20,320 nt of DNA from a virus. The stretch covers positions 1 to 20,320 of the IMG/VR virus record IMGVR_UViG_3300033064_001388; one strand, 5' to 3'. Below are positions 2,208-18,871 of this stretch, one piece after another. Under the pieces are notes generated by a model. The model was not told the origin of the DNA. It worked only from the letters and a program-made list of their open reading frames with translations, and did not search any database. Each line of letters starts with the position of its first letter. Positions within the stretch are counted from its first letter, which is position 1. The translations under genes were made by a program, and so were the position numbers.

Positions 2208-2732
2208 CTACGAGGTTTCCCCGTAGCCGATGGCCCAGATGTCTCCGACGGCATAGGTTTCGCCAGACGCCGTCGCATCGACCTTGAAGGCCTTGAACAA
2301 GACCTTGTACTCACGATCCGTTTCGGCATCGAAAACGATCTCCGAGTCGAGTTTCGGATAGGTGAGGAAGAAGGTGATCCACTTCGTTGCGTCCACCGTG
2401 GCCGTGCCGTTGATGATCGGTTTGATGACCAGTTGCTGAGCGTTGTCTCGCATCGATGTTCCGACCTGGCTCGAGAACATCAACTCATCGCCCGTCTTGG
2501 TGGTTCCGGGCAGAGCAGCGGCCAACTGAGTGAGGGTGCTTCCAGTCATGGAAATCTCAATCTCAGTCGCTTCACCGGTAAAGATTTCGTCTTTCGGCGA
2601 CGTGCCGTTCTGCGCGGTTTTGTGCTCGGCGGTGTCTTCCGAGTGCCGTGAGGTGACGCTATGGTTGTCACCGAGATCGACCGAGTTCCACTCGCAGTTC
2701 GCGGGGCCGAGTTCACCAAAGGGAGCTCCCAT
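2208..2732 (-). CDS. Major tail tube protein
   Basis: A 174-residue protein with a clear CAGGAG ribosome site 9 nt before its ATG. It begins MGAPFGELGPANCEWN and has alternating beta-rich stretches, including TEIEISMTGSTLTQLAAALPG and a late EYKVLFKAFKVDATASGETYAVGDIW segment. The late pattern is typical of the tail tube beta-sandwich of siphophages. It would form the hexameric rings of the non-contractile tail. Gene order (tail terminator, this gene, two chaperones, tape measure) makes the call robust even though the sequence family is not named. There is no sheath gene beside it, consistent with a siphovirus tail. Confidence 0.8.
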   Translation of the reverse strand: MGAPFGELGPANCEWNSVDLGDNHSVTSRHSEDTAEHKTAQNGTSPKDEIFTGEATEIEISMTGSTLTQLAAALPGTTKTGDELMFSSQVGTSMRDNAQQLVIKPIINGTATVDATKWITFFLTYPKLDSEIVFDAETDREYKVLFKAFKVDATASGETYAVGDIWAIGYGETS

Positions 2733-3959: not shown

Positions 3960-4252
3960 TGGAGGTCCACCATCACGAACAGAGTAGCCCATCCCTGGGG
4001 CTTCCCGATGGCCAGAACGGAATGGTCCTGACCGTCTACTGTGAACTTGTCGTTGTGGGTGACCACCGCGTCGGGGGCCAGATAGATGCGCATCGCACTG
4101 ACTACCTGCTCCCCTTGCTGGTTCCTGACAAGCCGGGTCTGATATTTGATGCGGCAGGACACTTCCGCCTCAGTGCGTGTTGCCTCCCCCCAGGTATCCT
4201 CAGAGGAAAATGAGCAGTGGGTGACGGAGTTGATGAGGTAGGATCGAATCAT
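3956..4252 (-). CDS. Head closure protein (minor capsid protein 1-like)
   Basis: A 98-residue protein starting one nt after the MuF-like gene stops. The sequence is a small beta-barrel candidate: SEDTWGEATRTEAEVSCRIKY, then QVVSAMRIYLAPDAVVTHNDKFTVDG, then a terminal HSVLAIGKPQGWATLFVMVDL. The order 'strand, D-x-F-x-V-D-G, strand' is typical of head-closure/Minor_capsid_1 proteins (SPP1 gp16-type), which seal the connector after packaging and provide the tail docking surface. The next genes in order (gp10-like, terminator, tube) agree with this. The stop overlaps the following start as ATGA. Confidence 0.65.
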   Translation of the reverse strand: MIRSYLINSVTHCSFSSEDTWGEATRTEAEVSCRIKYQTRLVRNQQGEQVVSAMRIYLAPDAVVTHNDKFTVDGQDHSVLAIGKPQGWATLFVMVDLQ

Positions 4253-4253
4253 G

Positions 4254-5201
4254 TCATGCCGCCTTCTGCTTCGCCTTCTTTTGGGCTTCGGTCAGATCCT
4301 GATTGCTGGCTTCAACGGCCTGGTCGTATTCATCGCGACGGATGAGCACGTTCTCGATGACCGGAAGGATTGCATGCCAGCAGCCGGGATGAAATGGTGG
4401 CATCCGGTCCAGCTGTGGGAAGTCCGAATGCCCGCCTGAAATCGAAAAGGTCTTGCCCTCATAGACCTGACAGATCGGGGTATCTGTCCCGTGGTCTGAG
4501 ATCTGCACCAGGTCTACCCCGGCCTGAGTCGTGGCGTTGACTGTCCCTCGGCTGGTCGCTTCACGAGTCCGAGTCCGGGCTACAAGTTCGGCGTAGGATC
4601 TGGGTTGATAGTTCCTCCCGTTGATTGTCAGGAGTCTCCCGCCTTCGATCTGGTCCATGAGCCGGCGCTCAATCAGTTTCGACACATCCCGGCGCGTCTT
4701 GCCCTCGATCAATCCCCCGATGATCTGCCGATTGATCTCGCCCTCTGTGATAAGGGCCTGTTGAGTGGACCGGACAAAGCGCGTTGCATTCCGCAGTATG
4801 CTCCCGTTGGCCGTCAGGAGATCGGCTGTCATCTGGTCAGCAATGACGTTGACCGCCTGGACGTGCATCCTGGCGCCGAAGTTAACGCCGGATCCGGTAT
4901 AACCGAGTTGGGACAGTGTTTGGGATGTGATATCCATGCCCTTCTGATAAGCTTCTTTCGCCGCGCCTCCCGCCCATGCCCGCGCCTGCTGGTTCAGAAC
5001 GACGATTTCGCGATTGACCTGTTTGAGAATGTCGTTCATTCGGGCCTGTTGCGCCGCCGTCTGGGGTACCCCGGACATGAGCAGCGTCGTGATTCTGTCC
5101 TGGGTGTCCGCATAGATCACCGTCAGGGTTTGGATCTTCCGGCGCATGAAGGACAGTGCTTCACGGGCAGACATTTCAGAGAGTGAGGGCAGACTGGGCA
5201 T
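4254..5201 (-). CDS. MuF-like minor head protein (phage minor capsid protein)
   Basis: About 315 residues from ATG at 5201, which shares one base with the upstream stop; a GTG at 5204 would add one residue. A GGAAG lies 8 nt before the ATG. The N-terminal half is helical and Gln-rich. Around residues 205-290 lie RTRTREATSRG, ISDHGTDTPICQVYEGK and PPFHPGCWHAI, the signature of the MuF/minor capsid family (C-x(n)-G-K and a P-x-H-P-x-C motif). Such proteins are internal head components linked to the portal. In most phages the gene follows the portal gene directly. Here it is about 8 kb farther on, beyond the capsid, connector and glycosyltransferase genes. The C-terminus is Lys/Ala-rich. Confidence 0.85.
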   Translation of the reverse strand: MPSLPSLSEMSAREALSFMRRKIQTLTVIYADTQDRITTLLMSGVPQTAAQQARMNDILKQVNREIVVLNQQARAWAGGAAKEAYQKGMDITSQTLSQLGYTGSGVNFGARMHVQAVNVIADQMTADLLTANGSILRNATRFVRSTQQALITEGEINRQIIGGLIEGKTRRDVSKLIERRLMDQIEGGRLLTINGRNYQPRSYAELVARTRTREATSRGTVNATTQAGVDLVQISDHGTDTPICQVYEGKTFSISGGHSDFPQLDRMPPFHPGCWHAILPVIENVLIRRDEYDQAVEASNQDLTEAQKKAKQKAA

Positions 5202-5464
5202 CACTCATTCTTCCGGATCTGAAATGTCTTGAGGCAGACTTCCTGATGGTCCTCAAATCGAACTTGCATCTCGCCCTGCTTCCGGAGGATTTCCCCCGTC
5301 CGCTGGTCCAGATGATCCAATTTCTTCACAACACCATTTTTCATTGTGCTATCGAGAACTTCAAGCCGGTTCGTGACCCGGCCCGCGATAAAGGCCAAGG
5401 CTACCAGCTGGCCAATCAAGCCACACGCGAGAACAATGATAGACATCCAGCCGGCTTCACTCAT
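5201..5464 (-). CDS. Small single-TM membrane protein with coiled coil
   Basis: An 87-residue protein. The N-terminus MSEAGW is followed by one hydrophobic helix (about residues 7-28), then a charged heptad-like segment (VTNRLEVLDSTMKNG, LDHLDQRTGEILRKQ) to the end. The topology is therefore one TM anchor with a cytoplasmic or periplasmic coiled coil. It could be a lysis accessory (holin-like or spanin-like membrane protein) or a membrane factor for head assembly. No endolysin is next to it, so a holin call is not justified. Its stop overlaps the MuF-like gene start. It lies in the same late operon. Confidence 0.65.
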   Translation of the reverse strand: MSEAGWMSIIVLACGLIGQLVALAFIAGRVTNRLEVLDSTMKNGVVKKLDHLDQRTGEILRKQGEMQVRFEDHQEVCLKTFQIRKNE

Positions 5465-5497
5465 GGGAATAGTCCGTTTCTGTTTTTGTGTTTTGCT

Positions 5498-5701
5498 CTA
5501 CGGCTTCGGGACTTCTTCCACTGTCGCGTCTTTCTTCTGCTCCTTCACGGCCATCATTTCCTCGTGCTGGCCGACGATCTTGGCCAGGGTCGCGACTGCC
5601 GCCTGAATCGACACGTGCTGCGCTCTGTTGCCGACAAACGCGGCCCCCACTTGATCCATCGTCTGTAGGGCCTGCTGCCCTGTCATCTGCTGCTCTGCCA
5701 T
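5498..5701 (-). CDS. Small hypothetical phage protein (67 aa)
   Basis: ATG at 5701 with an AGAGGA ribosome site 8 nt upstream; longer in-frame starts lack this support. The protein MAEQQMTGQQALQTMDQVGA is Gln/Ala-rich, probably fully helical, and ends in a charged tail (KEQKKDATVEEVPKP). It has no membrane segment and no recognised family. It lies between the last glycosyltransferase and the TM protein, with about 30 nt gaps on both sides, slightly wider than elsewhere in this operon. A role cannot be given. Confidence 0.6.
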   Translation of the reverse strand: MAEQQMTGQQALQTMDQVGAAFVGNRAQHVSIQAAVATLAKIVGQHEEMMAVKEQKKDATVEEVPKP

Positions 5702-5732
5702 TTCACTGTTCCTCTCTTGGTTGGGTGATCCG

Positions 5733-6425
5733 TCAGAATATCCGCTTCTCCGGTTCGTAGTGCTCCCGATAGTAGCGTTCGTAGAACTCTTGCCGCTGTG
5801 GGGCGAGCGTCTTGTCCCGATACATGGCCGTCCCATCCTTGCACTCGGGGAGGTTCTCATAGGCTTTGGTTGGAACCACCCACTTGGGCACGGTTGGCCG
5901 TTCCTTCATCTGCCACCAAAGATCGTCCGCATTTCGGGGAAGCCCTCTGAGATCAAACCCGAGGTTGCACCTGGGAGTCAGGCATACCACCCCGACGAAT
6001 CCGACACGGACGGGACTGTCGATCTTGTTCGAGGCGTAGAACGCGGTATTGGCGTGGTAGTCGGGACCCAGAAACGTCCGCCCGATGATGCCGACGATGG
6101 GTTCTCCGGCTGTTCTGCGGCGCACGTTTTCCCAACCATCTACCAGGTCAGCCAGCATCCCGGGAAGTGGGAGCAGGTCATCATCGGCCAGAACAATAAG
6201 GTCCCCTTCAGTCATCAGGGCAAAGGCGTAGTCGCTCTTCGGCCCGGTGTCGATCGGCATGTTCCAAACGCGGACGCCCTCAACTTGAGACTCATACTCC
6301 CCGCTGCCGTCCAGAAGCCAGACCTGGTCTGCACCCTCATCCATCCAAGCCGCGAGAATCCGATCCAGATTGCGGAATCGGCGATAGGTTGTGACCAGGA
6401 CTGAGACGGAGGCGGCGTTTATCAT
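5733..6425 (-). CDS. GT-A fold glycosyltransferase (family 2-like)
   Basis: The chosen ATG at 6425 overlaps the upstream stop as ATGA and gives 230 residues; an in-frame start at 6464 would extend into the previous gene. The N-terminus SVSVLVTTYRRFRNLDRIL is the nucleotide-sugar-binding beta-alpha unit of family 2 enzymes. LIVLADDDLLPLPGM places a DDD metal/nucleotide site at residues 81-83. A second acidic motif, NADDLWWQM, sits at about 165-173, where the catalytic base is usually found. No membrane segment is present, so this is a soluble enzyme. Donor and acceptor are unknown. It closes the four-gene glycosyltransferase block in the late operon, suggesting action on a phage-borne or host-surface glycan late in infection. 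Confidence 0.8.
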   Translation of the reverse strand: MINAASVSVLVTTYRRFRNLDRILAAWMDEGADQVWLLDGSGEYESQVEGVRVWNMPIDTGPKSDYAFALMTEGDLIVLADDDLLPLPGMLADLVDGWENVRRRTAGEPIVGIIGRTFLGPDYHANTAFYASNKIDSPVRVGFVGVVCLTPRCNLGFDLRGLPRNADDLWWQMKERPTVPKWVVPTKAYENLPECKDGTAMYRDKTLAPQRQEFYERYYREHYEPEKRIF

Positions 6426-6805
6426 GATTTCGCCTTTCGCTTCTTTTTGTTCCACTTCTGACACGCTTTCGCGATGTCTGGCACCGCGGCCGCCATGAAT
6501 TCGCCAACCTCATCGGCGATCTTCGCAAATTGGCAGTGGGTGAAAACGAACAGATAGTTCCCGGCCTCGCCGGAGTTGTCCTGAGATTCGAAATATCGGA
6601 CCCGCAGGGACTCGGCAGACATCTCAAAGGCTTCATGCACAACCCGCGCCAGCACGGTTTTCCACGTGCCTTTCATCCCGATCTTCATCCTGGGGAAGTC
6701 GATGTCTCCAGGCAGCGCCCAGTACTCCGCGCCATGGCCATCCCGCAAAACAACCTGAACCTTGCGGTAGCCCATCTCGTAGACGCCGATGATCTTCTGT
6801 TTCAT
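6422..6805 (-). CDS. Small unknown protein within the glycosyltransferase block
   Basis: A 127-residue protein with ATGA overlaps at both ends (start with the rhamnosyltransferase-like gene, stop with the next glycosyltransferase). It begins MKQKIIGVYEMGYRKVQVVL and has a beta-rich N-terminal half (GAEYWALPGDIDFPRMKIGM), a helix near residues 48-62 and a very basic tail (WNKKKRKAKS). No family is recognised. Translational coupling with glycosyltransferases on both sides suggests that it serves the same pathway, for example as an acceptor or accessory, but nothing in the sequence proves it. The basic tail could bind nucleic acid or an acidic surface. Confidence 0.6.
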   Translation of the reverse strand: MKQKIIGVYEMGYRKVQVVLRDGHGAEYWALPGDIDFPRMKIGMKGTWKTVLARVVHEAFEMSAESLRVRYFESQDNSGEAGNYLFVFTHCQFAKIADEVGEFMAAAVPDIAKACQKWNKKKRKAKS

Positions 6806-7530
6806 GGGGTCACCCCGAACCGGCGCAGAATCGTCGCCATCTCATGCGGATCGCGGGTCAGGAGTTTCCCGCCCGCGGCCAGCGCGTCGATCTCGGCTTG
6901 GGAGAACCGGACTGGCTGCCTGTCCCGCCGAATGTCCGAGATGTTCTCTTCGTGTTTCACGACCATGATCCGACCGGCCGGGAGTTCAACGCAGTCCGAT
7001 CGATTGCCACCGAGTTTCCCATGCGCTTGGACGTTGATGGCGGTGAAGTCGGGCCAGTCCTGGAAGATGGACCTCGGAAATACCTGCGTCACGAATGGCG
7101 GAGCCTTACGATAAAAGCGGACGATGTAACCGTTGTTCATATCCCACGCCAGACAGTCACGGAAAACATAGTAGGATACAGATCCGTGCTTTCCGTTGCA
7201 CTCGGCATGAATGGCATCCATCGCATCGTCCCGCATGAGATCGTCCGAGTCGATTCGGGTCAGGGCTACGAAGTCATCGGATAGGCTCGTGATCCACTCT
7301 CGGCCTTCGTCATAAACCGGTCGGCACTTTTCGGGCCATTCGAACGTCCGCGTCAGGTCCCGGTTTCGAATTCCACAGACGACCATGATCTCGAAGTCCT
7401 GGAATGTCTGACCCATGAGGCTCTTGTGCGTCGTCCGGCAGAACCGTTCGAAGCGCGCCCGGATCCACTCGGGCTTGAGAATCAGCGTTGGCCGGTCGTA
7501 GTCGAGGAAGATTTTGACCAGGTGTTTCAT
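6802..7530 (-). CDS. Putative rhamnosyltransferase-like glycosyltransferase
   Basis: ATG at 7530 overlaps the upstream stop as ATGA; a GGGGGT precedes it. The protein has 242 residues. The start MKHLVKIFLDYDRP, then WIRARFERFCRTTHKSLMGQ, then TFQDFEIMVVCG, resembles the 'putative rhamnosyl transferase' family, in which an R-x-x-x-F helix is followed by a Q-T-x-x-x-F strand. TRIDSDDLM at residues 91-99 is the DxD-type nucleotide-sugar site. The later SYYVFRDCLAWDMNNGYIV is consistent with the family's acceptor region. The sugar donor is inferred only from the family name and may not be dTDP-rhamnose. No sugar-nucleotide synthesis gene is present, so the donor must come from the host. Confidence 0.75.
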   Translation of the reverse strand: MKHLVKIFLDYDRPTLILKPEWIRARFERFCRTTHKSLMGQTFQDFEIMVVCGIRNRDLTRTFEWPEKCRPVYDEGREWITSLSDDFVALTRIDSDDLMRDDAMDAIHAECNGKHGSVSYYVFRDCLAWDMNNGYIVRFYRKAPPFVTQVFPRSIFQDWPDFTAINVQAHGKLGGNRSDCVELPAGRIMVVKHEENISDIRRDRQPVRFSQAEIDALAAGGKLLTRDPHEMATILRRFGVTP

Positions 7531-8201
7531 GCTGACCCCCAGATCTGCCCGCAACAAAGGCGGGAATCCCGAAGTTCCTGATCCTCCTGGATCCTGAGCC
7601 GAGCGTCCTTGTGCGTCTGGTCTATCTCCGCCTTCTTGTGCGCCGGGTGGAAGTGCTCCACCCACGGCTCTTCGGTGTATACCCACTTGTCAACCGCATC
7701 GGCCAGCCATTGGACCTCCTGCGCCGCGAAGTGCCAATAGAGCGGGCAGAAGAGTTGACTGTCCGGATACCTCTGAAGGAACTGAGGGCCAACCAGTGCC
7801 ACACCCGAGGGATGGTGAGAATCGACCTGCCGGATCCCGAGAACGCCATCATCATCGGGAAAGGCGGCGTTGAACTGGCTGTTCAGAGCATTCACGAAAC
7901 CGGGCTTGAATATGACATCGTCGGTTGCGTAGAGAATGCCGCTTTCCGGGTCCAGTTGAGCCGCAAACTTGATGGCCTCATTCCGGGCCGCCACCGCCCC
8001 GACATGATCTTTCAGGAGCAACGGCTCGATGTTCTTTCCGCCAGGCAGAAGCCCGTTCCATATCTGGTTGAACGTCTCTCGGTCGCCGTCACACACGACA
8101 ATGACGCCAGTGCCCGGATCGGTTGCCGGGATAGACGCGAGGGTCCGGGTGAGTGAATCGAGCCGGTTTCGTGTGGGGATGATGATCCAGAAGCGTTTCA
8201 C
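7527..8201 (-). CDS. Glycosyltransferase family 2-like protein
   Basis: A GTG start at 8201 forms a GTGA overlap with the upstream stop and has AAGGGA 8 nt before it. An ATG at 8210 would sit directly on that ribosome site, so the GTG is preferred (224 residues). RFWIIIPTRNRLDSLTRT is the first beta-alpha unit of a family 2 GT-A fold. VIVVCDGDRETF follows, and ILYATDDVIFKPGF carries the acidic pair at residues 94-95. HVGAVAARNEAIKFA matches the conserved G-x-x-x-A-R-N segment of these enzymes. It is soluble. The ending WGQIWGSA-like tail overlaps the next gene as ATGA. Substrates are unknown. Confidence 0.8.
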   Translation of the reverse strand: MKRFWIIIPTRNRLDSLTRTLASIPATDPGTGVIVVCDGDRETFNQIWNGLLPGGKNIEPLLLKDHVGAVAARNEAIKFAAQLDPESGILYATDDVIFKPGFVNALNSQFNAAFPDDDGVLGIRQVDSHHPSGVALVGPQFLQRYPDSQLFCPLYWHFAAQEVQWLADAVDKWVYTEEPWVEHFHPAHKKAEIDQTHKDARLRIQEDQELRDSRLCCGQIWGSA

Positions 8202-9508
8202 GTGACGCATCCCTTCAGCCGGCGAGAAGCCTGGAAGTGTTCGATACAGGGATCTTCGCCGTTTGCCCGCATGGTGTCGAATATGGTGCAGTAGGAGGCG
8301 GGCAGTCGTAGCATCCGGCCACCGTTGATTTCCCAGCCGTGAACGATCTTCTGGAGTGTGCGCTGATCCCATGCTTCTGGGTTGTGGTCGTTGGCTTGCT
8401 GCCAGAGATCAAGCAGCTCGCGGGCCTTGGCGGTATTTCCCCAGAACATTGTGCCGGAGAGAAGTTCGTCGCCACCCGGCTTATTCCGCCAGTGACAGGC
8501 AAAGTCGCAGTCGAGGTCATCCAACCGATATGGATACCGGTGTACCTTGGCGTCCGCGTCCAGCCAGAGAACGGATCGGCCAGTGTGCCGATCGAGCGCA
8601 TCCCGAATAAACTCGGTCTTGTGCTGACAGTTTGTCTCCCATGATCCCCGAGACTGAACAGGTCGAATGTCATGCTCAATCCCAAGGGGGATCAAGGAAG
8701 CCCGGAGTTTGCAAGATTCGGCTTCATATTCCGGGGTGTGGAACGAAACAACGACTGGACGCTGAATCTGCGGTAGATCCTCAAACCTGCCAAACTCGAA
8801 ACAGCGCAGCCCACTGTCCGGGCACAGGTTGACGATCCGGGCCCGACGCCTTGCGAACTGGGCTTCCTGCTCAAACGCGGACTGGAACATCGTATAGATA
8901 TCCGGCTTCTGGTGCTCATTCGGGTAGCCAGAATGAAAGTATTCCTTCTTGGGCGTATCGTCTCGCATGTCGAACCCGAGCAGATAGATGGGATCGGCGC
9001 CCAGGCACAGAGCGAGATTCAACGCTGAGAATCCGCTATTCCCGGATCGGCTCACGCCGCCCGTTCCCAACCCCTGCGAGATTGAAGGGGAGAGTTTGCT
9101 CACATCATGGAATCGATCGATATGGGTAACATTCGGGCCGTCTACCTCATGCCCCTTGAACACGCAGAATACCCGCAACAGGGGAAGGTCTGGATTCTCC
9201 CACCGCTGCAATGCCTGGTTTCCGAGTTGGCCCGTCTTGATGTATGTACGGACAAACCGAGTGTCGATCGAGAACCAGATCGTAGGAGTGCAGTATTCCG
9301 CCGCCCGATTGATGGCAATGACGCGCTCACCCGCGAGGGCAGACCAGTCGAAACCCTTGAGAGACGGCCCGCCGCCGATGATAAAGCAGCGAGAACCGCG
9401 CCACATGCCATCCCGAATAGCATCGGGAGCAGCGACCGGAGCAGCCTTGGGCCGGACGCGGTTGAGTAGAGGTGATTTCATGTAGCGCAGGGCTTCAACG
9501 GGTTCCAT
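8198..9508 (-). CDS. DUF115/Maf-like domain fused to a nucleotide-sugar transferase domain
   Basis: A 436-residue two-domain protein. Residues 35-200 carry CFIIGGGPSLKGFDWSALAG, VIAINRAAEY and IYLLGFDMRDD, the hallmark of DUF115/MptE-like proteins, a group that includes Maf-type flagellin glycosylation factors and many phage proteins. From about residue 250 a second domain begins (PVVVSFHTPEYEAESCKLRA). It has the DxD motif SVLWLDADAKV at 317-319, SGTMFWGNTAKARELLDLW, and a terminal CIEHFQASRRLK, which fits GT77-type nucleotide-diphospho-sugar transferases. The start is supported by GAGAGGTAA 6 nt before ATG 9508. It follows the head connector gene by 2 nt and opens the glycosyltransferase block. 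A role in glycosylating a protein is inferred. Confidence 0.75.
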   Translation of the reverse strand: MEPVEALRYMKSPLLNRVRPKAAPVAAPDAIRDGMWRGSRCFIIGGGPSLKGFDWSALAGERVIAINRAAEYCTPTIWFSIDTRFVRTYIKTGQLGNQALQRWENPDLPLLRVFCVFKGHEVDGPNVTHIDRFHDVSKLSPSISQGLGTGGVSRSGNSGFSALNLALCLGADPIYLLGFDMRDDTPKKEYFHSGYPNEHQKPDIYTMFQSAFEQEAQFARRRARIVNLCPDSGLRCFEFGRFEDLPQIQRPVVVSFHTPEYEAESCKLRASLIPLGIEHDIRPVQSRGSWETNCQHKTEFIRDALDRHTGRSVLWLDADAKVHRYPYRLDDLDCDFACHWRNKPGGDELLSGTMFWGNTAKARELLDLWQQANDHNPEAWDQRTLQKIVHGWEINGGRMLRLPASYCTIFDTMRANGEDPCIEHFQASRRLKGCVT

Positions 9509-9510
9509 GT

Positions 9511-9915
9511 TTACCTCTCGAACTTGAACGTGTTGCTGCCACCAAGGTTGTATTCGGAGAGCCTGATATGAGCCCGCGGAGCGATAACAATCCCACGAAT
9601 GCCAGCCAGAGATTCGGAAAAGTCGCTCACGGTGAAACTACGCACTCCCTGAGCCTGTAGGGATTCCCGCTTGGACTGTCCTTCCTGGTCGCTCAAGAGG
9701 AAGAGGGCTTGCTCGCAGACGGCCTCTTGCATGGCGTCTGTGGGGGTAATGCCGGACTCGAAGTCATAGACGCCACAGCTCTCAATCTGCCACTGGCCGG
9801 TAGTCAGAGCAGCCGTTTTGTCGGCGTCAGAGGCAGCCGTCCAATCCGATGATCCGAGCCTGGTTGAGAAATATGTGGTCGCTTCCGCAACCGTGAGCCA
9901 GAGCGTGGTGCTCAT
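9511..9915 (-). CDS. Head-tail connector protein (gp6/DnaT-like family)
   Basis: A 134-residue protein with ATGA overlap on its upstream side. It starts MSTTLWLTVAEATTYFSTRL, then SSDWTAASDADKTAALTTGQ, a helix-helix layout with the W-x-x-A-x-x-x-x-K-x-A-A-L pattern. This is typical of the gp6-like head-tail connector group often annotated as 'DnaT-like ssDNA-binding'. AMQEAVCEQALFLL is the third helix. Despite that annotation name, a structural role at the portal ring is expected from position. The C-terminal half (GIRGIVIAPRAHIRLSEYNLGG) is Gly/Arg-rich and probably extended. Its next structural partners lie about 4 kb farther on, because the glycosyltransferase block intervenes. Confidence 0.7.
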   Translation of the reverse strand: MSTTLWLTVAEATTYFSTRLGSSDWTAASDADKTAALTTGQWQIESCGVYDFESGITPTDAMQEAVCEQALFLLSDQEGQSKRESLQAQGVRSFTVSDFSESLAGIRGIVIAPRAHIRLSEYNLGGSNTFKFER

Positions 9916-10265
9916 GCTATTTTCCTCGCTTCGGCCTTGTCAGTGAGGCCGTCTGTGATAAAGTCCACAAACATCTGCTTGTCCATGACTCCGGTTTGCA
10001 TATTGAATGCCACCTCATAGGCTCCTGCGATAGTTAGCCGACCCGACCTAATGCCGTCTATAAAGAGTAATGCCTTGCCAGGCCGTTTTGCCGCGCGAAT
10101 AAGAATTTCGAGATTCTCTTTCATGTGTGCAGGCGGGCGGGATTCGCCTGTTTTCCATCGATAATAGGTCATTCTAGAAACACCGAGAATCTCCGCTATC
10201 TCAGCCTGAGTCAGATCGAGTGCCTTTCGAGCTCTCTGCATTTCTTCTCTTGTAATCTGGCTCAT
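9912..10265 (-). CDS. XRE-family HTH DNA-binding protein inside the structural operon
   Basis: ATG at 10265 overlaps the methyltransferase stop as ATGA, giving 117 residues. Residues 6-57 form an XRE/Cro-type helix-turn-helix: REEMQRARKALDLTQAEIAE, then ILGVSRMTYYRWKTGESRPP, with the L-T-Q-A-E-I-A and G-V-S-x-x-T-x-x-x-W-x-x-G signature. The C-terminal half (KALLFIDGIRSGRLTIAGAY, then an acidic helix DKQMFVDFITDGLTDKAEAR) is not recognised and may mediate dimerisation or bind a partner. A DNA-binding regulator between capsid and connector genes is unusual. It would be made late, with virion proteins. It could repress early genes, be packaged, or be the antitoxin-like remnant of a pair, but no toxin is beside it. 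Confidence 0.75.
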   Translation of the reverse strand: MSQITREEMQRARKALDLTQAEIAEILGVSRMTYYRWKTGESRPPAHMKENLEILIRAAKRPGKALLFIDGIRSGRLTIAGAYEVAFNMQTGVMDKQMFVDFITDGLTDKAEARKIA

Positions 10266-10816
10266 GGGGTTTTCCTTCCCTGTTTCCAAGTCACAACGTG
10301 GAAGATGCCCAGATGCTCGATCTTCGCCGGGGGATCGGCTGGGAAGAACGCGGCCAGTTCCTCGACTGTGAACAGCCAAAGGTGGCCCGGATCGTTCACT
10401 TTCTGCGCCGGGGTCGTAAGAACCAAAGTTCCGCCCGTGATCGCATTCAGTGCCCGGACCATGCCCGCCGGGTCTGGAACATGCTCGAGGACCTCTGAGC
10501 AGACCACACCGTCAAACTGCCCGAGCGCGGATAGTTCCTCTGAAGTTTTCAGACAGTGAAACGTAGTGGCCGAGAAGACGCGAACGGCCTCCTTGATGGC
10601 CGACTCGCTGAAATCGATCCCCGTCCATTCACCGCCGACGCGTGCGGCGAGTTCCGCCGTGGAATGCCCACAGGCACAGCCCACGTCAATGAATCGGCCT
10701 GCTGCCGGGAGCCGCTCTGCAATCCAGTCGAACCGCTGCTGATGCTTCGGGCTCTTCAGGTGCTCTGAAATATTTTTCGGGAGCCAGTGCTGGGAAATGT
10801 AGGCTTCAGCGTTCAT
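10262..10816 (-). CDS. Class I SAM-dependent methyltransferase
   Basis: A 184-residue protein whose ATG overlaps the upstream stop as ATGA. RFIDVGCACGHSTAELAARV holds motif I (D-V-G-C-x-x-G, residues 44-50). GIDFSESAIKEA contains the acidic residue for the SAM ribose (Asp68). FDGVVCSEVLEHVPDPAGMV (from 101) is the conserved Methyltransf_11/UbiE-type motif, and LVLTTPAQ the following strand. No DNA methylase target motif (N/D-P-P-Y/F) is present, so the target is more likely a small molecule, sugar or protein. Next to the glycosyltransferases, sugar O-methylation is a reasonable inference. It could equally modify another substrate. Confidence 0.85.
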   Translation of the reverse strand: MNAEAYISQHWLPKNISEHLKSPKHQQRFDWIAERLPAAGRFIDVGCACGHSTAELAARVGGEWTGIDFSESAIKEAVRVFSATTFHCLKTSEELSALGQFDGVVCSEVLEHVPDPAGMVRALNAITGGTLVLTTPAQKVNDPGHLWLFTVEELAAFFPADPPAKIEHLGIFHVVTWKQGRKTP

Positions 10817-11307
10817 TGCTGTTTCCGGTCTTCGAGCATTTTCTCTACGGCCTCGAAGCCGTCTGCCTCGAGTTCTGCCCGTAGTTCAGATTTCTTGATC
10901 CCGAGCCATCTGGCCCGGGGAAAGAGTTTCTTGGTGGCCGCATCAAGCGCGGCGCCGTCCAGCGGAGCAACAGCGGCGGGATCTACGATGGCCTCCGGAG
11001 CCGGTTTCTCTGTGAGTTCCGGTGCCGGTTTCTCGATGGGTCGGGGCGAGGGTTTCGGTGCTGCCTTCTGGATGTAGAACGTGTCCACCTTGATGCCGCG
11101 CGCCTTGTAGCATTCCTCGATCAAGGCCGCATTCAGTACGCCCGCCAGAATCCAGACCTCATCGAATTTTTCCACCTGGTCGCGGGTGAACGGGTTCGGG
11201 TTGCGGAGAACGGGGCGGAGATTTTTACTCTCCGCCCCGAGAACCGCCTCTCCGACCGCAGGGGAATCACTGAATCGTCCGTAGATTCCGACAGTTCGGG
11301 GGCGCAT
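10813..11307 (-). CDS. Unknown phage protein with Pro-rich linker, after the capsid gene
   Basis: A 164-residue protein in three parts. The N-terminal domain (residues 1-80) looks alpha/beta, with VGIYGRFSDSPAVGEAVLGA and FDEVWILAGVLNAALIEECY. A Pro/Glu/Lys/Ala-rich linker runs over about 82-117 (PKPSPRPIEKPAPELTEKPA). A C-terminal helical segment (RARWLGIKKSELRAELEADG) ends it. No family is recognised with confidence. Placement directly after the major capsid protein and before a methyltransferase is compatible with a capsid decoration, minor head or modification-related protein. The linker architecture suggests two tethered domains. The stop overlaps the methyltransferase start. Confidence 0.6.
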   Translation of the reverse strand: MRPRTVGIYGRFSDSPAVGEAVLGAESKNLRPVLRNPNPFTRDQVEKFDEVWILAGVLNAALIEECYKARGIKVDTFYIQKAAPKPSPRPIEKPAPELTEKPAPEAIVDPAAVAPLDGAALDAATKKLFPRARWLGIKKSELRAELEADGFEAVEKMLEDRKQQ

Positions 11308-11345
11308 ATCATCAGCCTTTCAGGTAGGTGTGTTTCAGGATGGGT

Positions 11346-12326
11346 CTACTGGGCCAGGATGCGGACGCCCGAGAGGTCCTTGTCGGCGGTCGCGGCCTTG
11401 TCCCAATTCGTGGTGGTTCCGAGCGCGGCATCGGTCGGGTTGGCGCCGCCGTTGCTCGTGTCCCAGGCGAAGCCTTTGCACTTGACCGCGAAGTCGTACT
11501 CGTACTGGACCTGGAACAGGATCTGTTCCCCGCCCGTTACGACTTCGCTAGCGATGGTCTGCTCCAGCGATTCGATCACGTCCACCGCCCCCTCAGTCAG
11601 CCCGAGGATGTTGTAGGTCGTGGTCGAACCAGAGACGGTGTTGATAAGCGCGGGCGCGTCAATGACGATAGTCGGACGCCCGAAGGTGGCCACGTTGCCG
11701 GAGTAAATCGTCACGTCGGCAACATTGGTAATCTTATCGCTCACGGCCTGTCCCACCAGGTTGTGGTAGGGCTTGGAGTGCATGACCCAGGCGCGGATAC
11801 GCCCGGACTGGTCGCCCATCTTCGCCATGCCGCTGACCAGGTGGCCGTGCGTTAGGGTCGTGGTGGACTGGCCGGTCGCGTCATAGACCAGCGCGGACTG
11901 ACCTTCGATGGCCGCTTCGACGGCAAGGATGCCCGTGTTGAGCATGTCCTTAGCCTTCTGTTGACCGTACTGTTCCCCGAGCACGAAAGAGAACTCGCGC
12001 ATGTCGGACCCGGTGATCTTGAGAGCACCGACTGCCTCAGCCAGCGGACCGTACTTCCGGCGGAGGTTGACGGCGATGATTTCGCCCTGAGTCATCGGGA
12101 TGATGTCAGCGGCCGCAACGGACGTGAGGTCGCGGCGGGTGGGGGCGGCGGGCAGTTTCCAGAAGGACTGCTTCTGATACTGGCCGAGGATCTGCTGCGT
12201 GACCATCCGCAGCGCGTTGGAGGAGGCGGCGTTGAAGCCGTCCGTGACCTGGGCGACGCCCTCGAAAACTCCGGCGTAGAACTGGTCATCGTAGATTTTG
12301 AGATCGGTGAGAACTCCGGCTGCCAT
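11346..12326 (-). CDS. Major capsid protein
   Basis: A 326-residue protein with a strong ribosome site (CAGGAG, 8 nt before ATG 12326). It starts MAAGVLTDLKIYDDQFYAGV and has an early NAASSNALRMVTQQILGQYQ helix. A middle segment, ALVYDATGQSTTTLTHGHLV, is followed by RIRAWVMHSKPYHNLVGQAV. This is the H-S-K-x-Y-x-x-L motif seen in a large group of HK97-fold capsid proteins. The later TFGRPTIVIDAP and QTIASEVVTGGEQILFQVQY strands fit the P domain. It follows a coiled-coil scaffold gene and precedes the connector genes, as expected. The N-terminus has no long delta domain, which agrees with a separately encoded scaffold. Confidence 0.85.
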   Translation of the reverse strand: MAAGVLTDLKIYDDQFYAGVFEGVAQVTDGFNAASSNALRMVTQQILGQYQKQSFWKLPAAPTRRDLTSVAAADIIPMTQGEIIAVNLRRKYGPLAEAVGALKITGSDMREFSFVLGEQYGQQKAKDMLNTGILAVEAAIEGQSALVYDATGQSTTTLTHGHLVSGMAKMGDQSGRIRAWVMHSKPYHNLVGQAVSDKITNVADVTIYSGNVATFGRPTIVIDAPALINTVSGSTTTYNILGLTEGAVDVIESLEQTIASEVVTGGEQILFQVQYEYDFAVKCKGFAWDTSNGGANPTDAALGTTTNWDKAATADKDLSGVRILAQ

Positions 12327-12353
12327 GGTAGTGGCTCCTGTTTCATTGTGAGA

Positions 12354-13118
12354 TTATGCCGGGAGTGCCTTAAACGCATCGAGGCCGTGTTTGGTAATGA
12401 ACTCTGATTTGTCCTTCGGTGTCAGGAGTTCACTCCGTTTCGTGGCTCTGATGCCGGAAAAGGCGCTACTTCCCGGACCGCCCGTGTTTCGCGAGCGGAC
12501 GTAATGTGCAAACTTCGGATTTGCCGCCATGAATTCGACTGCCTTGTCAACCGGAACGAACTCGCGCTTGATCTGACCGTTCTCGTCGGCTGCAACATCA
12601 ACCTCGAAGAGGTCATTGTGTTTTCCCGTCGGCTTCCCGTCTTCTCCCAGGACCGGCTCCCGTTTGTGGACGGAGAGAAGCCGCGGCACAATGTCTTCCG
12701 CAGGGTTGATGAATTTGTCGCCGACTGTGCCCAGAATGGCGTTGGTCAACTGAGTTCGGACGTGAGATTCACGCTCGACTTTCAGGTTGGCCTCAGCCTG
12801 TTCTGCACGGGTCATGGTCGTTTTCAGTTGCGTGGCCACCTTGCCTTCGGCTTCGGCCTGGGCGTGAGAAAGCGATTCTTCCATCTGCGTCTTTTCCGCA
12901 CGGAGTTCGGTCAGGAGCCGTTCGAGGTCAGGCGTCTTGATGGCCTGCGCTTCGAGTGTCTTGATCTTGTCCGTTTGGCGGGCCAGCCGCTCTTGGATCG
13001 TCGCGTTCATCTTGTCCTTGGTCACGGCGTTCGTGACCGTCGCCTCTTCCTCGCCGATCTTCACGAGATTGCCTTCACCGTCCAACAGTTGACCTTCGGC
13101 ATTGATTTGCAATTCCAT
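12354..13118 (-). CDS. Scaffolding protein (coiled-coil, GP20-like)
   Basis: A 254-residue protein with ATG at 13118 and an AAAGGA about 10 nt upstream. The N-terminus MELQINAEGQLLDGEGNLVK is a short beta-rich stretch. Residues about 35-120 form a long charged coiled coil (RLARQTDKIKTLEAQ, LLTELRAEKTQMEESLSHAQ, RAEQAEANLKVERESHV). The remainder contains the DKFINPAEDIVPRLLSV and VDKAVEFMAANPKFAHYVRS segments, common in phage scaffold/minor structural GP20-type proteins. The C-terminus (TPKDKSEFITKHGLDAFKAL) is probably the capsid-binding helix. Its location directly before the major capsid gene supports the role. No protease motif is seen. Confidence 0.75.
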   Translation of the reverse strand: MELQINAEGQLLDGEGNLVKIGEEEATVTNAVTKDKMNATIQERLARQTDKIKTLEAQAIKTPDLERLLTELRAEKTQMEESLSHAQAEAEGKVATQLKTTMTRAEQAEANLKVERESHVRTQLTNAILGTVGDKFINPAEDIVPRLLSVHKREPVLGEDGKPTGKHNDLFEVDVAADENGQIKREFVPVDKAVEFMAANPKFAHYVRSRNTGGPGSSAFSGIRATKRSELLTPKDKSEFITKHGLDAFKALPA

Positions 13119-13205
13119 GGCGTTTTATCCTTTCCGCGATAGGCTCGCGTGGGCCGTAGATGTCCGGGCGTTGAAGGGCCGCCCGTGAGCCGACTGCCGG
13201 GCTTC

Positions 13206-14654
13206 TCAGGTTCCCGTTTCCTGTCCCGCCTGCTGCGTGATGGTGTTCATCATCATCAACTGTGCTTCACGTTCCTGCGCTTTCACTGCCTCCAGTTCCT
13301 TTTCGATGTCAAGGTCTGGCGGCAGAATTTCATACCTTTTGAAGAGTTCGAGCAGAGTCCGCTTGGTGAGATCGTTGTTATCCACCAGCCCCCTTAGCGC
13401 CTGAACCATCGTAAACTGAATCATCTTGTCATCGAAGTCCCGGTTGTAGGAGATCTCGATCTTGGCGTCTGCTTTGCCCCGCCACTTCGCCATGATCTCC
13501 CAGCACTGCAACTCGGAGTCTTCGAACCACTGCGAAACGGTTTTGAGGGACGAAGCGAACATCCGCCGGTCTTCCCGCTGCGCGTCTTGGGATTGAACCT
13601 GGGCCGAGTCTTTCTTTGCCTGGGCGAGCGCGATAGAGAGAATCCGGTAGCGCAGATCTTCGATGCTGGCCCGAATGGAACTGAACCCCGCACCTGTCGG
13701 CTCGAGGTAGGCCACCTGGATAACGTCACCCTGCCCGCTCTGGATCCAGAGCCCATCCCCGACGTCCATTTTTTCCATCTTGGTCGGGGATACAACGTAG
13801 GGGATCGGGTGCGAGGAGAGGTGCTCAAACCAGTCGAGGTCCGAGTCTTTGTTGTAAATCTGAACTACGTGGTCGAGCACTGACCGGGTGACCGGCCATC
13901 CTGAAAATTCACTGCGCTTTGTGCCATAGAACGGGACGATGGGGACCACCCCGAGATTGTGACTTGCTCTGGCCGTTTCGATGTAGCGGCTGTCAGTGCC
14001 GGTTGCGCTTTTGCTCGCCTGCTCATACTGAATCCACTCCGTGCGGGTCCAGATTGTCCATGCGGGGGTGACTGCCGGATCGAGACCCACCTGGTCTTCC
14101 GTTCGAGAAACGATGGAGTTTTCCTTGATGATCACCCAGATGAGTTTCTGGTCAGTATCAACCGCCCAGTCGAGCACGCTGGCGGCCGGTACAGACTCAA
14201 AAAATGGGCGATGCCCAGCGTCACGTTCAGCCGCAGCCGAAGGATATCCACTCTCGGGTAGGCGGGTATGATTGACCAGCACCCAGTGCAACCCGTCAAT
14301 CTGAGCGTTCTCCGCCACACCCATGAAGTACAGGTTGGAGGGAGTCCCCTGGTTATCAACGTCAGGCTCGAATGCCTTCAGGTCCGGGGCGATTTCCCGC
14401 TTCGCCTCTTTGGAGAACAGGAGGGCTTGACGCGCCAGAATGATTTTCTCAACGAACGGATCCAGCACAGCCCGCTTGACGCGCCGATCATAATCAGTCG
14501 TGTCTTCGTTTTTCCCCTGGATGAGGTACGTGGCTTTTTTCGTTTCCGACTTGACCACGTCGCTGCCCTCATAGAGGTCACGGGCCTTGACCCGAACATC
14601 CTCAGTGGTCTTATAGTCAGGATGGACCCGATTGAAATCGCGCGTGTCAGCCAT
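13206..14654 (-). CDS. Portal protein
   Basis: ATG at 14654 overlaps the last base of the large terminase stop (TGATG), giving 482 residues; an in-frame upstream start at 14717 lies inside the terminase gene and lacks support. Early YEGSDVVKSETKKATYLIQG, then FVEKIILARQALLFSKEAKR, then IDGLHWVLVNHTRLPESGYP, match the wing and stem start of SPP1 gp6/DUF4055-type portals. SVPAASVLDWAVDTDQKLIW is the typical 'P-x-x-V-x-x-W' beta segment. Near the C-terminus a helix-rich tail (KELEAVKAQEREAQLMMMNT) fits the crown. It forms the dodecameric DNA channel at one capsid vertex. Downstream, 87 nt without a gene separate it from the scaffold gene. Confidence 0.8.
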   Translation of the reverse strand: MADTRDFNRVHPDYKTTEDVRVKARDLYEGSDVVKSETKKATYLIQGKNEDTTDYDRRVKRAVLDPFVEKIILARQALLFSKEAKREIAPDLKAFEPDVDNQGTPSNLYFMGVAENAQIDGLHWVLVNHTRLPESGYPSAAAERDAGHRPFFESVPAASVLDWAVDTDQKLIWVIIKENSIVSRTEDQVGLDPAVTPAWTIWTRTEWIQYEQASKSATGTDSRYIETARASHNLGVVPIVPFYGTKRSEFSGWPVTRSVLDHVVQIYNKDSDLDWFEHLSSHPIPYVVSPTKMEKMDVGDGLWIQSGQGDVIQVAYLEPTGAGFSSIRASIEDLRYRILSIALAQAKKDSAQVQSQDAQREDRRMFASSLKTVSQWFEDSELQCWEIMAKWRGKADAKIEISYNRDFDDKMIQFTMVQALRGLVDNNDLTKRTLLELFKRYEILPPDLDIEKELEAVKAQEREAQLMMMNTITQQAGQETGT

Positions 14655-16150
14655 CAGAACACCCCCACACCGGCGAAGACACCGGCCTTTTCCTCTGATG
14701 TGTACCGGGTCAGACACCCGAATCCGCCAGCCGTGGCGTCAAGTTGGTCATCATGTGCGCCCTTCGGGATAGACTCAGCCTCTGAGAGGTAGTCCCGGTT
14801 CCAGGGGCCCTGCACCAGGTAGACGTTCCCGGCCTCAGCCTGGGCGGACAACGGCCCCATCCGCACGAACTTGTCGCCGGTTGCAGTCACCCCTCGAACG
14901 TCATAGCCGTTCAGGACCTGGCGCACGTAGTAGTCGATAGCCTGCACCCCGGACGAGCCGGGCTCGCGCTCGATCCGAATCGGCACCGCGTGGCCGTCTA
15001 ACTCGGCAGTCTGCTTGACCAGGGCTTCCACCTTCTGGGGCGTCTCCCGCACCCGCCGCACGTCCTGGATGTAGTAGCACTTCGAGGCAGGGTCGCGGCC
15101 GATCTTGACGCCTGCGGTCCAGTCGGGATCGTTGCCCTGCTTTTTCTCAGACGCGGCGAAGTCCCAAAATCGGACGCTCTTCAGCCCGGCGGGAACCCGA
15201 TCGGCGGCGACAATCTGAAACCATTGCCGTTTGAAGATGCCACCTTCACGGGGCGCGGGGCGTTGCTGGAGTTGGCCGGCGGCGGCGTAGGAGCCGAGCT
15301 GCGCTTTCAGGTGCTCAAGTTCGTCTTGCCCGTATCGCTCTTCCCATAGAAGATCATTCTCCCGGGTTCGTGGATCATTCCAGCCGATAGAGGTGATGCA
15401 GGACCGTTGAGGTTCGTATTCAGCCGGCAGACATAGATGCTCCCATCCCCCCATTTCGAGGATATGCCCAGCGAGGTCGCGTTCATGCACCCGCTGCATA
15501 ATGACAACGTATGCCCCCCGGCGAGGATCGTTCAGCCGGGTAGACATCGCTTCATCCCACCAGGTCAGCGCGGCTTCCCGGGTAGGCTCAGACTCGGACT
15601 CTCGGACGTTGTGCGGATCGTCCACAACGATGATGTCTCCGCCTTCACCCGTCAGGGAGCCGTCAACAGAGGTAGCGATTCTCACCCCGCCCTTGTCATT
15701 CTCAAATTTCTGTTTCGTGTTCTGGTCGCCGGTGAGCCGGAACATATCCCCGAAGTGCTGACGGTATAGGTCGGATTCAATCAGGCGCCTGCACTTGACC
15801 GAGTCTCGGATGGATAGGCTCTGGGCATAGGAGGCGTACAGGAGGCGGAGACCAGGTCCACCGAGCGTGTCTTCCTTGGGTTTCTGTGCCCACAACCAGG
15901 CGGGCCAGGCGACGCTTACGGTGATGCTCTTGCAGTGGCGAGGCGGCACGTTGATAAGGAGCCGCCGAATGTCTCCACGCGCCACGGCTTCGAGGTGTTC
16001 ACAGATGGCGTCGATATGCCAGCCATGCACGTATTCCGACGGGTCCATATACCGCCAGAACTGTTGGATGAATTCCGCCAGTGACCGACGCGCGATGTCG
16101 CAGTCGATCTCTTCTACAGTGGCGGGTCTGGGTTGGTCAGTTGTCAGCAT
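14654..16150 (-). CDS. Terminase large subunit
   Basis: A 498-residue packaging motor and nuclease. The ATPase domain has a Walker A variant (VPPRHCKS, residues 68-75) and Walker B IIVVDDPHN (173-181). The C-terminal RNase H-like nuclease has RFWDFAASEKK (Asp330), RIEREPGSSG (Glu395) and HDDQLDATAGGF (Asp467/468/471), so all acidic positions expected for the two-metal site are present. Length is normal for the family. The start overlaps the small terminase gene by 14 nt. The ribosome site is weak (AAAGAA), implying coupling to the gene before it. It translocates DNA into the prohead through the portal and cuts it. Confidence 0.95.
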   Translation of the reverse strand: MLTTDQPRPATVEEIDCDIARRSLAEFIQQFWRYMDPSEYVHGWHIDAICEHLEAVARGDIRRLLINVPPRHCKSITVSVAWPAWLWAQKPKEDTLGGPGLRLLYASYAQSLSIRDSVKCRRLIESDLYRQHFGDMFRLTGDQNTKQKFENDKGGVRIATSVDGSLTGEGGDIIVVDDPHNVRESESEPTREAALTWWDEAMSTRLNDPRRGAYVVIMQRVHERDLAGHILEMGGWEHLCLPAEYEPQRSCITSIGWNDPRTRENDLLWEERYGQDELEHLKAQLGSYAAAGQLQQRPAPREGGIFKRQWFQIVAADRVPAGLKSVRFWDFAASEKKQGNDPDWTAGVKIGRDPASKCYYIQDVRRVRETPQKVEALVKQTAELDGHAVPIRIEREPGSSGVQAIDYYVRQVLNGYDVRGVTATGDKFVRMGPLSAQAEAGNVYLVQGPWNRDYLSEAESIPKGAHDDQLDATAGGFGCLTRYTSEEKAGVFAGVGVF

Positions 16151-16739
16151 GTTCTTTGTGAGACTCGGAGGTTTTGGCGCGGAGTTCTCGGTAGGCCTTG
16201 AGTTCTTTTATGGATAGTTTGGAGAGGTCTTCGACCTGGTGCTGAATCGGGCCGCCGTTCGGGCCGGAGTGCTCTACTCTCTCAACATAGAGCCCGAGGT
16301 ACTTCATGAGCATTTCGAGAGACGCCCGCTTGTCGTGCATCTTGATAGCCAGACAACCGTCTTTTGTCTCTCGGACGCTCTCAATCGCGGCTTTCACGTC
16401 GGGAGAGAGTTCGGCAAAATCTTTAATCGTCACAGTTCCACCGGTTACGGTCAGGACATCGGGCAGGTTTGAGAAGGCCAGTTTGCGGATTTCGTCCAAG
16501 ACGCGCTCTGCGGTTATCTCGGCTTTCTGGGCCATTTTCCCCATGTGCTGCTGAATCGCAGCCATGATTTCGGGTTTCTTCAATACCTCATGGCCGATTG
16601 CAGGCGCGGACTTTGGGCTGTACCCAGCGCGAAGTGCCGCTTTACTCGCGTTGAAGTCTTTCACGTATTCCTCGACGAATCGTTTTCGCTTGGGTGCTAG
16701 CCTGTGTGGGGGTCGGGGAAGGTGTCTGGCTGCGCTCAT
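16137..16739 (-). CDS. Terminase small subunit (Terminase_2 family)
   Basis: The chosen ATG at 16739 has AGGTGA 4 nt upstream and yields 200 residues; an in-frame start at 16838 would place about 33 residues across the hairpin region and is rejected. LAPKRKRFVEEYVKDFNASK followed by AALRAGYSPKSA is the typical Terminase_2 helix-turn-helix start. A middle KAEITAERVLDEIRKLAFSN and a C-terminal coiled-coil-like stretch (SKLSIKELKAYRELRAKT) are also family-like. It recognises the packaging site and regulates the large subunit. It is the first gene of the late operon, 99 nt from the predicted transcript start. Confidence 0.9.
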   Translation of the reverse strand: MSAARHLPRPPHRLAPKRKRFVEEYVKDFNASKAALRAGYSPKSAPAIGHEVLKKPEIMAAIQQHMGKMAQKAEITAERVLDEIRKLAFSNLPDVLTVTGGTVTIKDFAELSPDVKAAIESVRETKDGCLAIKMHDKRASLEMLMKYLGLYVERVEHSGPNGGPIQHQVEDLSKLSIKELKAYRELRAKTSESHKEHADN

Positions 16740-16781
16740 ACCGTCACCTGGGGCTGATCTGAGGGGGATTTCGCCGGGGCA

Positions 16782-16835
16782 CAAAGAAAAAACTCGCTGT
16801 ATCACAGGCCCCAATAGGGCCGCAAAATCAGCGAG
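16782..16835 (-). terminator. Intrinsic terminator in the leader of the late operon (nested hairpin)
   Basis: On the minus strand CTCGCTG (16835-16829) pairs with CAGCGAG (16799-16793), and inside it GGCCC/GGGCC (16821-16817 with 16811-16807) forms a second 5-bp stem. The structure is followed directly by TTTTTTCTTTG. This is a standard rho-independent layout. It would end the repressor-lipoprotein transcript and also block the promoter at 16845-16874 unless overcome. The 7-bp outer stem has an internal loop before the inner stem, so strength is hard to judge by eye. Confidence 0.65.
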
Positions 16836-16844
16836 CACGGGATG

Positions 16845-16874
16845 ACTATATGTGACGGGAACAGATCAGGTCAA
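16845..16874 (-). promoter_or_regulatory. Sigma70-like promoter for the late (packaging/structural) operon
   Basis: On the minus strand TTGACC (16874-16869) and TATAGT (16850-16845) are separated by 18 bp; each hexamer matches the consensus at 5 of 6 positions. The predicted start lies at about 16838, and the terminator hairpin begins about 3 nt later. No other promoter of this quality is seen before the terminase gene. Its start lies in the gap between the lipoprotein stop and the small terminase gene. Confidence 0.6.
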
Positions 16875-16909
16875 GGGAAAACCATATAGGAAGGAAGTAC
16901 TGTTTTTCT

Positions 16910-17926
16910 TTACGGGATGATTGTGCAGGACAGCACATTCCCGTTGAGGTCAACATGTGCGATAGCCGTCTGACGGACTACCCCGCCGAAGCTATTCTTA
17001 CCCCGGAACAACATCTTGACTGTGAGATGATCACCCCGATCTCCGTAGAACGTATCGTCGTGCTTGAATGAATCGGGATCATTCATCTGCGCCTTGACAT
17101 AGGCGACCAGTCCACGGTGAGAACCATTCCACGCGCTGAATTGGCTTTCGACCTCCTTCTTGCGGCTCTCAGTGTTCTTGGTCGACTGGGCTGTTTGTAT
17201 TGGGGCATTCATTTCATCCACCAGCCCCGTTTCTTCTTTCCACTGGTAATATCCTTTGGGGCTGACCCGCCTAATATCGTCGCCCGAGCGATAAACAAAC
17301 ACACGGAGGGTCGGAACCGATCTGTTCTGTGCAGCAACTTCTTTTGCCACTTCCTCCCCTTCGGATATGTCAGAGAGCCCGACGCTAATCGCCCGTGTAG
17401 CGGTGTCGAGCATTTCATCTGCGAGAATGGTGTATGTGACGCCAGAGGATGTTTTTTGAAGAGCGAGCGGCTTAGGTGTTGGCGTTGGCGCAGGCGTCGG
17501 CCTAGGGGTCGGCCTAGGCGTAGGCCTTGGGGTAGGAGTGGCTTTCGGGACAACAGGTGCAGATGAAACCGCAACGGCAGGCGGCGCATATGCCTTCCCG
17601 TAGTCTGTGAAGAGATCCCCATCTGAGAGCATGGCTGTCAGATGATCATCTTGAAGCCAGTAGTAGGAGCCCCCCGGCACGGCTTGGTAGAGATAGTGTT
17701 CTATGCCAGCCGCCTCAAACTTGCCCGACCATTGAACGCGTTCCTGAAGTGCAGCCCGAACCTCGGCAATGCTCATGCCGTGCAGCACCCGCCCGTCCTG
17801 TATCGCCCGACACGCCTCTTTGCTGAGGTCGGGATGGTCCACTGTATAGGACACCCGCCGGTAGGTCTTCCCACAGCCAACCAAAATCAAGATGCAAAGC
17901 AGGGCAACAACAACGCGGTGTCTCAT
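16910..17926 (-). CDS. Phage-encoded lipoprotein with Pro-rich linker (candidate lysogenic conversion / superinfection exclusion)
   Basis: ATG at 17926 is chosen because GGAGGA lies 4 nt upstream and a signal peptide begins right there (338 residues). The hydrophobic core VVVALLCILILVGC ends in a lipobox L-V-G-C (Cys18) followed by Gly, suggesting an outer-membrane or periplasmic-side lipoprotein. Residues 45-100 (HGMSIAEVRAALQERV, SYYWLQDDHLTAML) resemble small BamE/SmpA-like domains. A PTPR-repeat linker spans 130-153. The C-terminus (VKAQMNDPDSFK, FRGKNSFGGVVRQTAIAHVD) matches a small domain seen in other bacterial lipoproteins. It is 43 nt behind the repressor on the same strand, so it is probably expressed in the lysogen. 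Exclusion of other phages is a hypothesis. Confidence 0.75.
   Translation of the reverse strand: MRHRVVVALLCILILVGCGKTYRRVSYTVDHPDLSKEACRAIQDGRVLHGMSIAEVRAALQERVQWSGKFEAAGIEHYLYQAVPGGSYYWLQDDHLTAMLSDGDLFTDYGKAYAPPAVAVSSAPVVPKATPTPRPTPRPTPRPTPAPTPTPKPLALQKTSSGVTYTILADEMLDTATRAISVGLSDISEGEEVAKEVAAQNRSVPTLRVFVYRSGDDIRRVSPKGYYQWKEETGLVDEMNAPIQTAQSTKNTESRKKEVESQFSAWNGSHRGLVAYVKAQMNDPDSFKHDDTFYGDRGDHLTVKMLFRGKNSFGGVVRQTAIAHVDLNGNVLSCTIIP
17499..17534 (-). repeat. Three tandem 12-nt repeats encoding the PTPR linker
   Basis: Three near-identical 12-nt units (17499-17510, 17511-17522, 17523-17534; plus-strand core GGCCTAGG or GGCCTTGG) encode repeated P-T-P-R in the lipoprotein. Flanking codons continue the Pro/Thr/Ala pattern less regularly. 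Such in-frame tandem repeats can change copy number by slippage and so vary the linker length. They are not CRISPR-like, as there are no spacers. Confidence 0.7.
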
Positions 17927-17969
17927 GGCTTCCTCCGGGTTGCATTTCAACTTGATTTCGGCTTGACCG

Positions 17970-18841: not shown

Positions 18842-18871
18842 CACGACCGTTGGAAAGGAATACACGTCACA

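Follow-up and report, generated by a model that had tools for sequence, protein, structure and literature searches.

The window analysed in this work is a stretch of 20,320 nucleotides of phage DNA, contig C668 of a MAG that is 78% complete. It carries a series of genes on the minus strand, which begins with a repressor-like gene, continues with terminase, portal, capsid, connector, MuF and tail genes and ends with a partial tape measure gene. Our results confirm that a block made up of one small gene and four glycosyltransferase (GT) genes, the latter encoding five GT domains in all, lies within this head-tail operon at positions 5733-9508 of the minus strand, in the order fusion enzyme, GT2, rhamnosyltransferase-like GT (rha), small gene and GTa. 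The translational coupling that had been proposed was found at all four internal junctions, where each gene shares exactly 4 nt (ATGA or GTGA) with the next, and only 2 nt separate the start of the fusion gene from the head-tail connector/adaptor gene (9511-9915, minus strand), assigned by weak connector-family matches and synteny. The placement of the block between the connector gene and the MuF-like minor head protein gene (4254-5204, minus strand; phrog_4611, 2.4e-41) holds, although two further small genes, at 5498-5701 and 5201-5464, stand before the latter, and the second of these has, by eye, an apparent membrane segment. When positions 4000-17000 were scanned for promoters and terminators, sites were no more numerous than in shuffled sequences, so that a separate transcript is neither supported nor refuted. 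Two regulatory genes were also observed in the window: an Xre-type helix-turn-helix gene (9912-10265), located within the head operon with a methyltransferase gene on one side and the connector gene on the other, and a LuxR-type (GerE) regulator on the plus strand (19181-19864), close to the repressor-like gene and an AlpA-like gene.

Family-level Pfam matches support a GT assignment for all four enzymes. The GT2 family glycosyltransferase (7527-8201, minus strand) matches PF00535 (E 2.6e-8) and has conserved DGD and TDD motifs, while rha (6802-7530, minus strand) matches PF11316 above the cut-off and has a conserved RIDSDD motif. GTa (5733-6425, minus strand) is a GT2-like GT-A glycosyltransferase with conserved LADDD and DDLW motifs that adjoins the rha and methyltransferase (MT) genes in relatives; its start, previously placed at 6464 from the long ORF, had to be corrected to 6425. 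In Pfam searches the window copy of GTa matches Glycos_transf_2 weakly (E 0.01), and 6 of 7 members of its family match it, the best at 1.9e-9. The window copies of GT2, rha and GTa keep the acidic motifs found to be invariant when each family is aligned, and the window fusion keeps the invariant residues of its N-terminal domain, so that these enzymes look intact. The original prediction overlooked a methyltransferase gene (10262-10816, minus strand; PF13489), whose product shares 49% identity with one encoded directly after GTa in a related contig, and for this reason we count it into the module, likely as a sugar O-methyltransferase. The small gene (6422-6805, minus strand) codes for a protein with an HExxE motif. 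Its first assignment as Nudix was dropped, as no Nudix match was obtained, and fold searches gave for it weak zincin-like (SprT/IrrE) matches only. One homolog was found, adjoining the connector gene of a related contig (L015); the product could be a zincin-like head protein and is probably not a glycan enzyme.

The fusion enzyme (8198-9508, minus strand) bears an N-terminal PF01973/GT42-like (Cst/Maf-like) domain and a C-terminal GT-A domain (PF03407) with an LDAD motif. When the N-terminal domain was compared with PF01973, 25 of 35 rows matched at E up to 0.1 (best 7.9e-9), and the window copy scored 17.7 bits, under the 34.6-bit cut-off. The eight best matches of the N-domain profile in the PDB were all Cst-I/II sialyltransferases (E 0.006-0.015, within positions 41-230 at most), and 5mu5, which we take to be the Magnetospirillum Maf structure, appeared lower in the same list; the likeness to Cst/Maf is thus weak by sequence (E 0.006-0.7). 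The AlphaFold model of the whole protein (pLDDT 90) was compared with the PDB using Foldseek, and the four best matches were to A064R of chlorovirus PBCV-1 (TMt 0.67-0.71, probability 1.00, E 9e-7 to 7e-8). This match probably falls on the C-terminal domain, because the top hits are GT-A folds and the PF03407 match lies there. GT-A folds are widespread, and therefore the likeness to A064R leaves the acceptor unfixed.

Neither the fusion protein, used alone against viral contigs, nor GTa, used in a first scan of genome contigs, gave any match, so profiles were needed. The GT2 profile search returned 33 viral contigs and 6 MAG contigs, and profile searches together gave homologous cassettes at about 40 viral or MAG loci. 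We compared gene order at 42 loci, window included, in which the gene calls of the relatives are crude six-frame ORFs and not trained predictions. In the first related contig (L009/L015), rha, GTa, MT and the small gene adjoin the connector and MuF genes. The core that recurs across loci is D115N-(cupin)-D115C-GT2-rha-GTa-MT, GT2 being the commonest cassette gene; the two D115 domains form one fused gene at some loci and separate genes at others, and usually remain together. LicD, cytidylyltransferase, sulfotransferase, polysaccharide deacetylase, FkbM methyltransferase and further GTs occur as optional extras. Gaps inside the cassettes have a median of -4 nt and are of 10 nt or less in 140 of 161 cases. 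Wherever both flanks are visible (15 loci, window included) the cassette lies within the head-tail block (15/15), and it stands beside head genes in 15 more loci with one visible flank; in 7 loci it is located downstream of baseplate or tail genes, and two were unplaced. Chance can be excluded as the origin of this arrangement, since many independent contigs show these families again, in a largely unchanged order. The capsid-type gene upstream of the cassette belongs to at least three families across loci: one kind matches phrog_247; another matches a family annotated as 'virion structural protein'; c3, the third kind, has a best family of unknown function and is called a capsid by position only. 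This variation, which tells against the explanation proposed below, fits there being no single conserved acceptor at that position.

Several features of individual loci may be recorded here. Three Phycisphaerales loci (L022-L024), which showed a distant GT2 only and no phage context, were left out. In L027 the MuF gene (17167-19014) carries an intein-like insert (PF14890, E 3e-4) at a conserved PPxHPxC site, and long MuF ORFs are also present in L028, L041 and L054. In L019, a 179 kb contig of the MAG Candidatus Borrarchaeum weybense, baseplate genes are followed by a large D115N-GT2 cassette; this Asgard-binned contig is either an archaeal virus or provirus or a misbinned phage contig.

Is the cassette inherited together with the virion genes? 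The tail gene hk97gp10 was used as seed, because no part of the tail-tube profile was sufficiently conserved for scanning, and it returned 80 loci. All six contigs in which gp10 was close and the upstream sequence long enough (L066-L071) contained the cassette; three of them (L067, L069 and L071) had been missed by the GT scans. In L072 and L073 the upstream sequence was too short to judge. None of the five GT profiles matched among the lower-scoring gp10 relatives, many of whose contigs are short. Because cassette-bearing loci were the source of the gp10 profile, these counts speak for linkage to a lineage and do not represent a random sample. GT distances correlated with virion-gene distances with a Mantel r of 0.53-0.86, a correlation that near-identical contigs inflate and that comes close to the 0.75-0.88 of virion genes versus MuF, and distances among the cassette genes correlated with each other. 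These data bear on the idea that the genes are independent cargo, or morons, occupying a permissive spot of the late operon without a joint pathway. In line with it, gene content varies, and L105 carries a non-homologous GT/MT set in the same slot, between capsid and connector; however, the D115-GT2-rha-GTa-MT order recurs, starts and stops overlap, the distances of the cassette genes are correlated and the D115 domains, fused or split, usually stay together, so we regard independent cargo as very unlikely.

The original prediction also held that the enzymes lack membrane segments and that no flippase is encoded, and both points were supported by hydropathy and by a GtrA profile, respectively. 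Out of 293 cassette ORFs, 10 passed the 19-residue hydropathy threshold, most of them borderline, and a profile search found no GtrA flippase in 17 contigs and the host MAG, with a control that gave a signal in 7 of 14. The Gtr type of seroconversion, in which a gtrA flippase accompanies a membrane-bound gtrB, is thus not what we find; the two analyses point to soluble enzymes without a flippase of the GtrA family. Cassette-linked ORFs with a signal or membrane segment were seen in L028/L029 (lipoprotein-like) and L045. Separately, a lipoprotein-like protein with a PKD domain is encoded between cassette and connector in L012 (2045-2842) and L013/L014 (11571-12368), and it is possibly a surface or acceptor protein. 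These results are relevant to the proposal that the cassette alters a glycan on the surface of the host, either at a late stage of infection or in lysogens, leading to seroconversion, superinfection exclusion or easier release. Indeed, envelope polysaccharide clusters commonly include genes of the GT2, rhamnosyltransferase, LicD, cytidylyltransferase, deacetylase and FkbM families, lipoprotein-like genes lie near the cassette in some loci, and the repressor-like gene of the window, recognized from its translation, suggests that the phage may be temperate. Nevertheless, the absence of GtrA from the 17 contigs and the host MAG, the scarcity of membrane proteins among the 293 cassette ORFs, their slot among virion genes and not near lysogeny or early genes, and their inheritance together with virion genes make a role in the host envelope unlikely.

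A target in the phage DNA itself was also considered, as GTs and tailoring enzymes are likewise part of DNA hypermodification systems. Glycosylation of DNA bases by hypermodification of the TET-phage or T4 type could be evoked by a very weak match of GT2 to a TET-associated GT family (E 0.04). Against it, searches for a C5 DNA methylase and for a thymidylate-synthase-like gene in 17 contigs of 27-124 kb, which are fragments, found neither, with controls that gave the expected signal, and the cassette is positioned among assembly genes. A TET/JBP search of 35 contigs gave no match, with its control silent as well. We consider base glycosylation the least probable reading, and a highly improbable one.

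We propose that this block forms the core of a cytosolic system, encoded by the phage, for the glycosylation of virion proteins, which is in our judgement the probable explanation. Soluble glycosylation of virion proteins is favoured because few of the 293 cassette ORFs pass the hydropathy threshold, no GtrA was found in the contigs searched, the fusion model resembles A064R most closely and its N-terminal domain resembles Cst/Maf enzymes, and both Maf and the PBCV-1 enzymes act in the cytoplasm. The non-homologous GT/MT set in the capsid-connector slot of L105 and the N-domain homologs in late blocks of cultured jumbo phages (see below) also speak for it. The earlier suggestion of a soluble, protein-linked glycan is strengthened by the near absence of membrane segments, by the lack of a GtrA match in the contigs searched and by the resemblance of the fusion to flagellin-type and PBCV-1 capsid transferases, although glycan and acceptor are putative. 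Similarly, late expression together with the virion proteins had been anticipated: the conserved genomic slot favours co-expression, while the timing stays a prediction. The cassette would be co-transcribed with the genes for head and tail, and the soluble enzymes that it encodes would act in the host cytoplasm on freshly made virion proteins, using sugar nucleotides supplied by the host. In the order of steps that we infer, the Cst/Maf-like domain of the fusion would prime a Ser or Thr of a structural protein, the fused GT-A domain would attach the second sugar, GT2, the rhamnosyltransferase-like enzyme and GTa would lengthen the glycan, and the methyltransferase would cap a sugar. Relatives may decorate it further with LicD and cytidylyltransferase, sulfotransferase, deacetylase or FkbM. 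Altered adsorption, shielding or particle stability is the likely benefit. Putative acceptors in the window are the major capsid protein (11346-12326, minus strand) and an Ig-domain tail protein, the probable tail tube (2208-2732, minus strand); no single acceptor stood out in the Ser plus Thr content of the virion proteins, and acceptor and linkage are presumed here.

More tentatively, we put forward that an uncultured tailed-phage lineage has a complete and soluble pathway, co-inherited as part of its head-tail genes and primed by a Maf-like enzyme, that attaches glycans to virion proteins prior to assembly; phosphodiester (LicD), sulfate and methyl groups would decorate the glycan in different members. 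If so, this would be a dedicated and diversifying virion glycosylation system in phages. In many uncultured phages the cassette is tied to the head-tail genes and differs in its decorating enzymes, which suggests that the surface of the particle is under selection. The enzyme sets and putative acceptors are now defined well enough to be tested, and the cassettes are a possible source of enzymes for soluble protein O-glycosylation.

Few cases of virion glycosylation are known in bacterial viruses. Mycobacteriophages (Che8 and relatives) are reported to carry glycans on the capsid and tail tube (Freeman 2023, via PMC12619734 and PMC11256854), and, as we propose for the cassette, phage-encoded GTs have been suggested or shown to glycosylate these proteins. 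The GT genes of mycobacteriophage Maravista are near the 3' genome end, in contrast with their location within head genes here, and the relatives of our cassette have a larger enzyme set. Our literature search found mycobacteriophage virion glycosylation and no description of this module, a novelty that is provisional as most subscription literature lay outside its coverage. Precedents for virion glycosylation exist in mycobacteriophages and chloroviruses. At the sequence level, a tblastn search of 50,697 phage records gave no match to GT2, GTa or rha. Tunturi_4, the reference phage whose capsid is nearest, has one annotated GT, in the terL-portal interval, and it did not match the cassette GT profiles.

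The PBCV-1 enzymes are soluble and cytoplasmic (PMC5408694), and A064R resembles the cassette in joining a GT with a methyltransferase domain. It is the closest solved structure to the fusion model, a likeness of fold, and PBCV-1 differs in being a eukaryotic algal virus with N-linked glycans and early-expressed genes (PMC5408694). Maf proteins O-glycosylate flagellin in the cytoplasm (PMC4065374), and their PF01973 domain has a structure similar to that of Cst-II (PMC11339370). PF01973 is also the family matched by the N-terminal domain in 25 of 35 rows, and the substrate of Maf is a structural protein that assembles by itself and is modified in the cytoplasm, ahead of its export. However, the solved Maf has three domains and Maf proteins use nonulosonic acids, whereas the cassette domain is fused or adjacent to GT-A, and no nonulosonic acid genes were seen in the cassettes. 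Finally, cultured jumbo phages of Caulobacter and Brevundimonas (CcrColossus, CcrSC and Domovoi) encode a homolog of the N-terminal domain ('alpha-2,3-sialyltransferase'), also found by profile in CcrColossus, whose other GTs gave no profile match to GT2, GTa or rha. As in our cassettes, this gene belongs to a late block and, in the Caulobacter phages, has GT and/or MT neighbours, but it lies just after the tail genes and before the lysis genes instead of at the head-tail junction.
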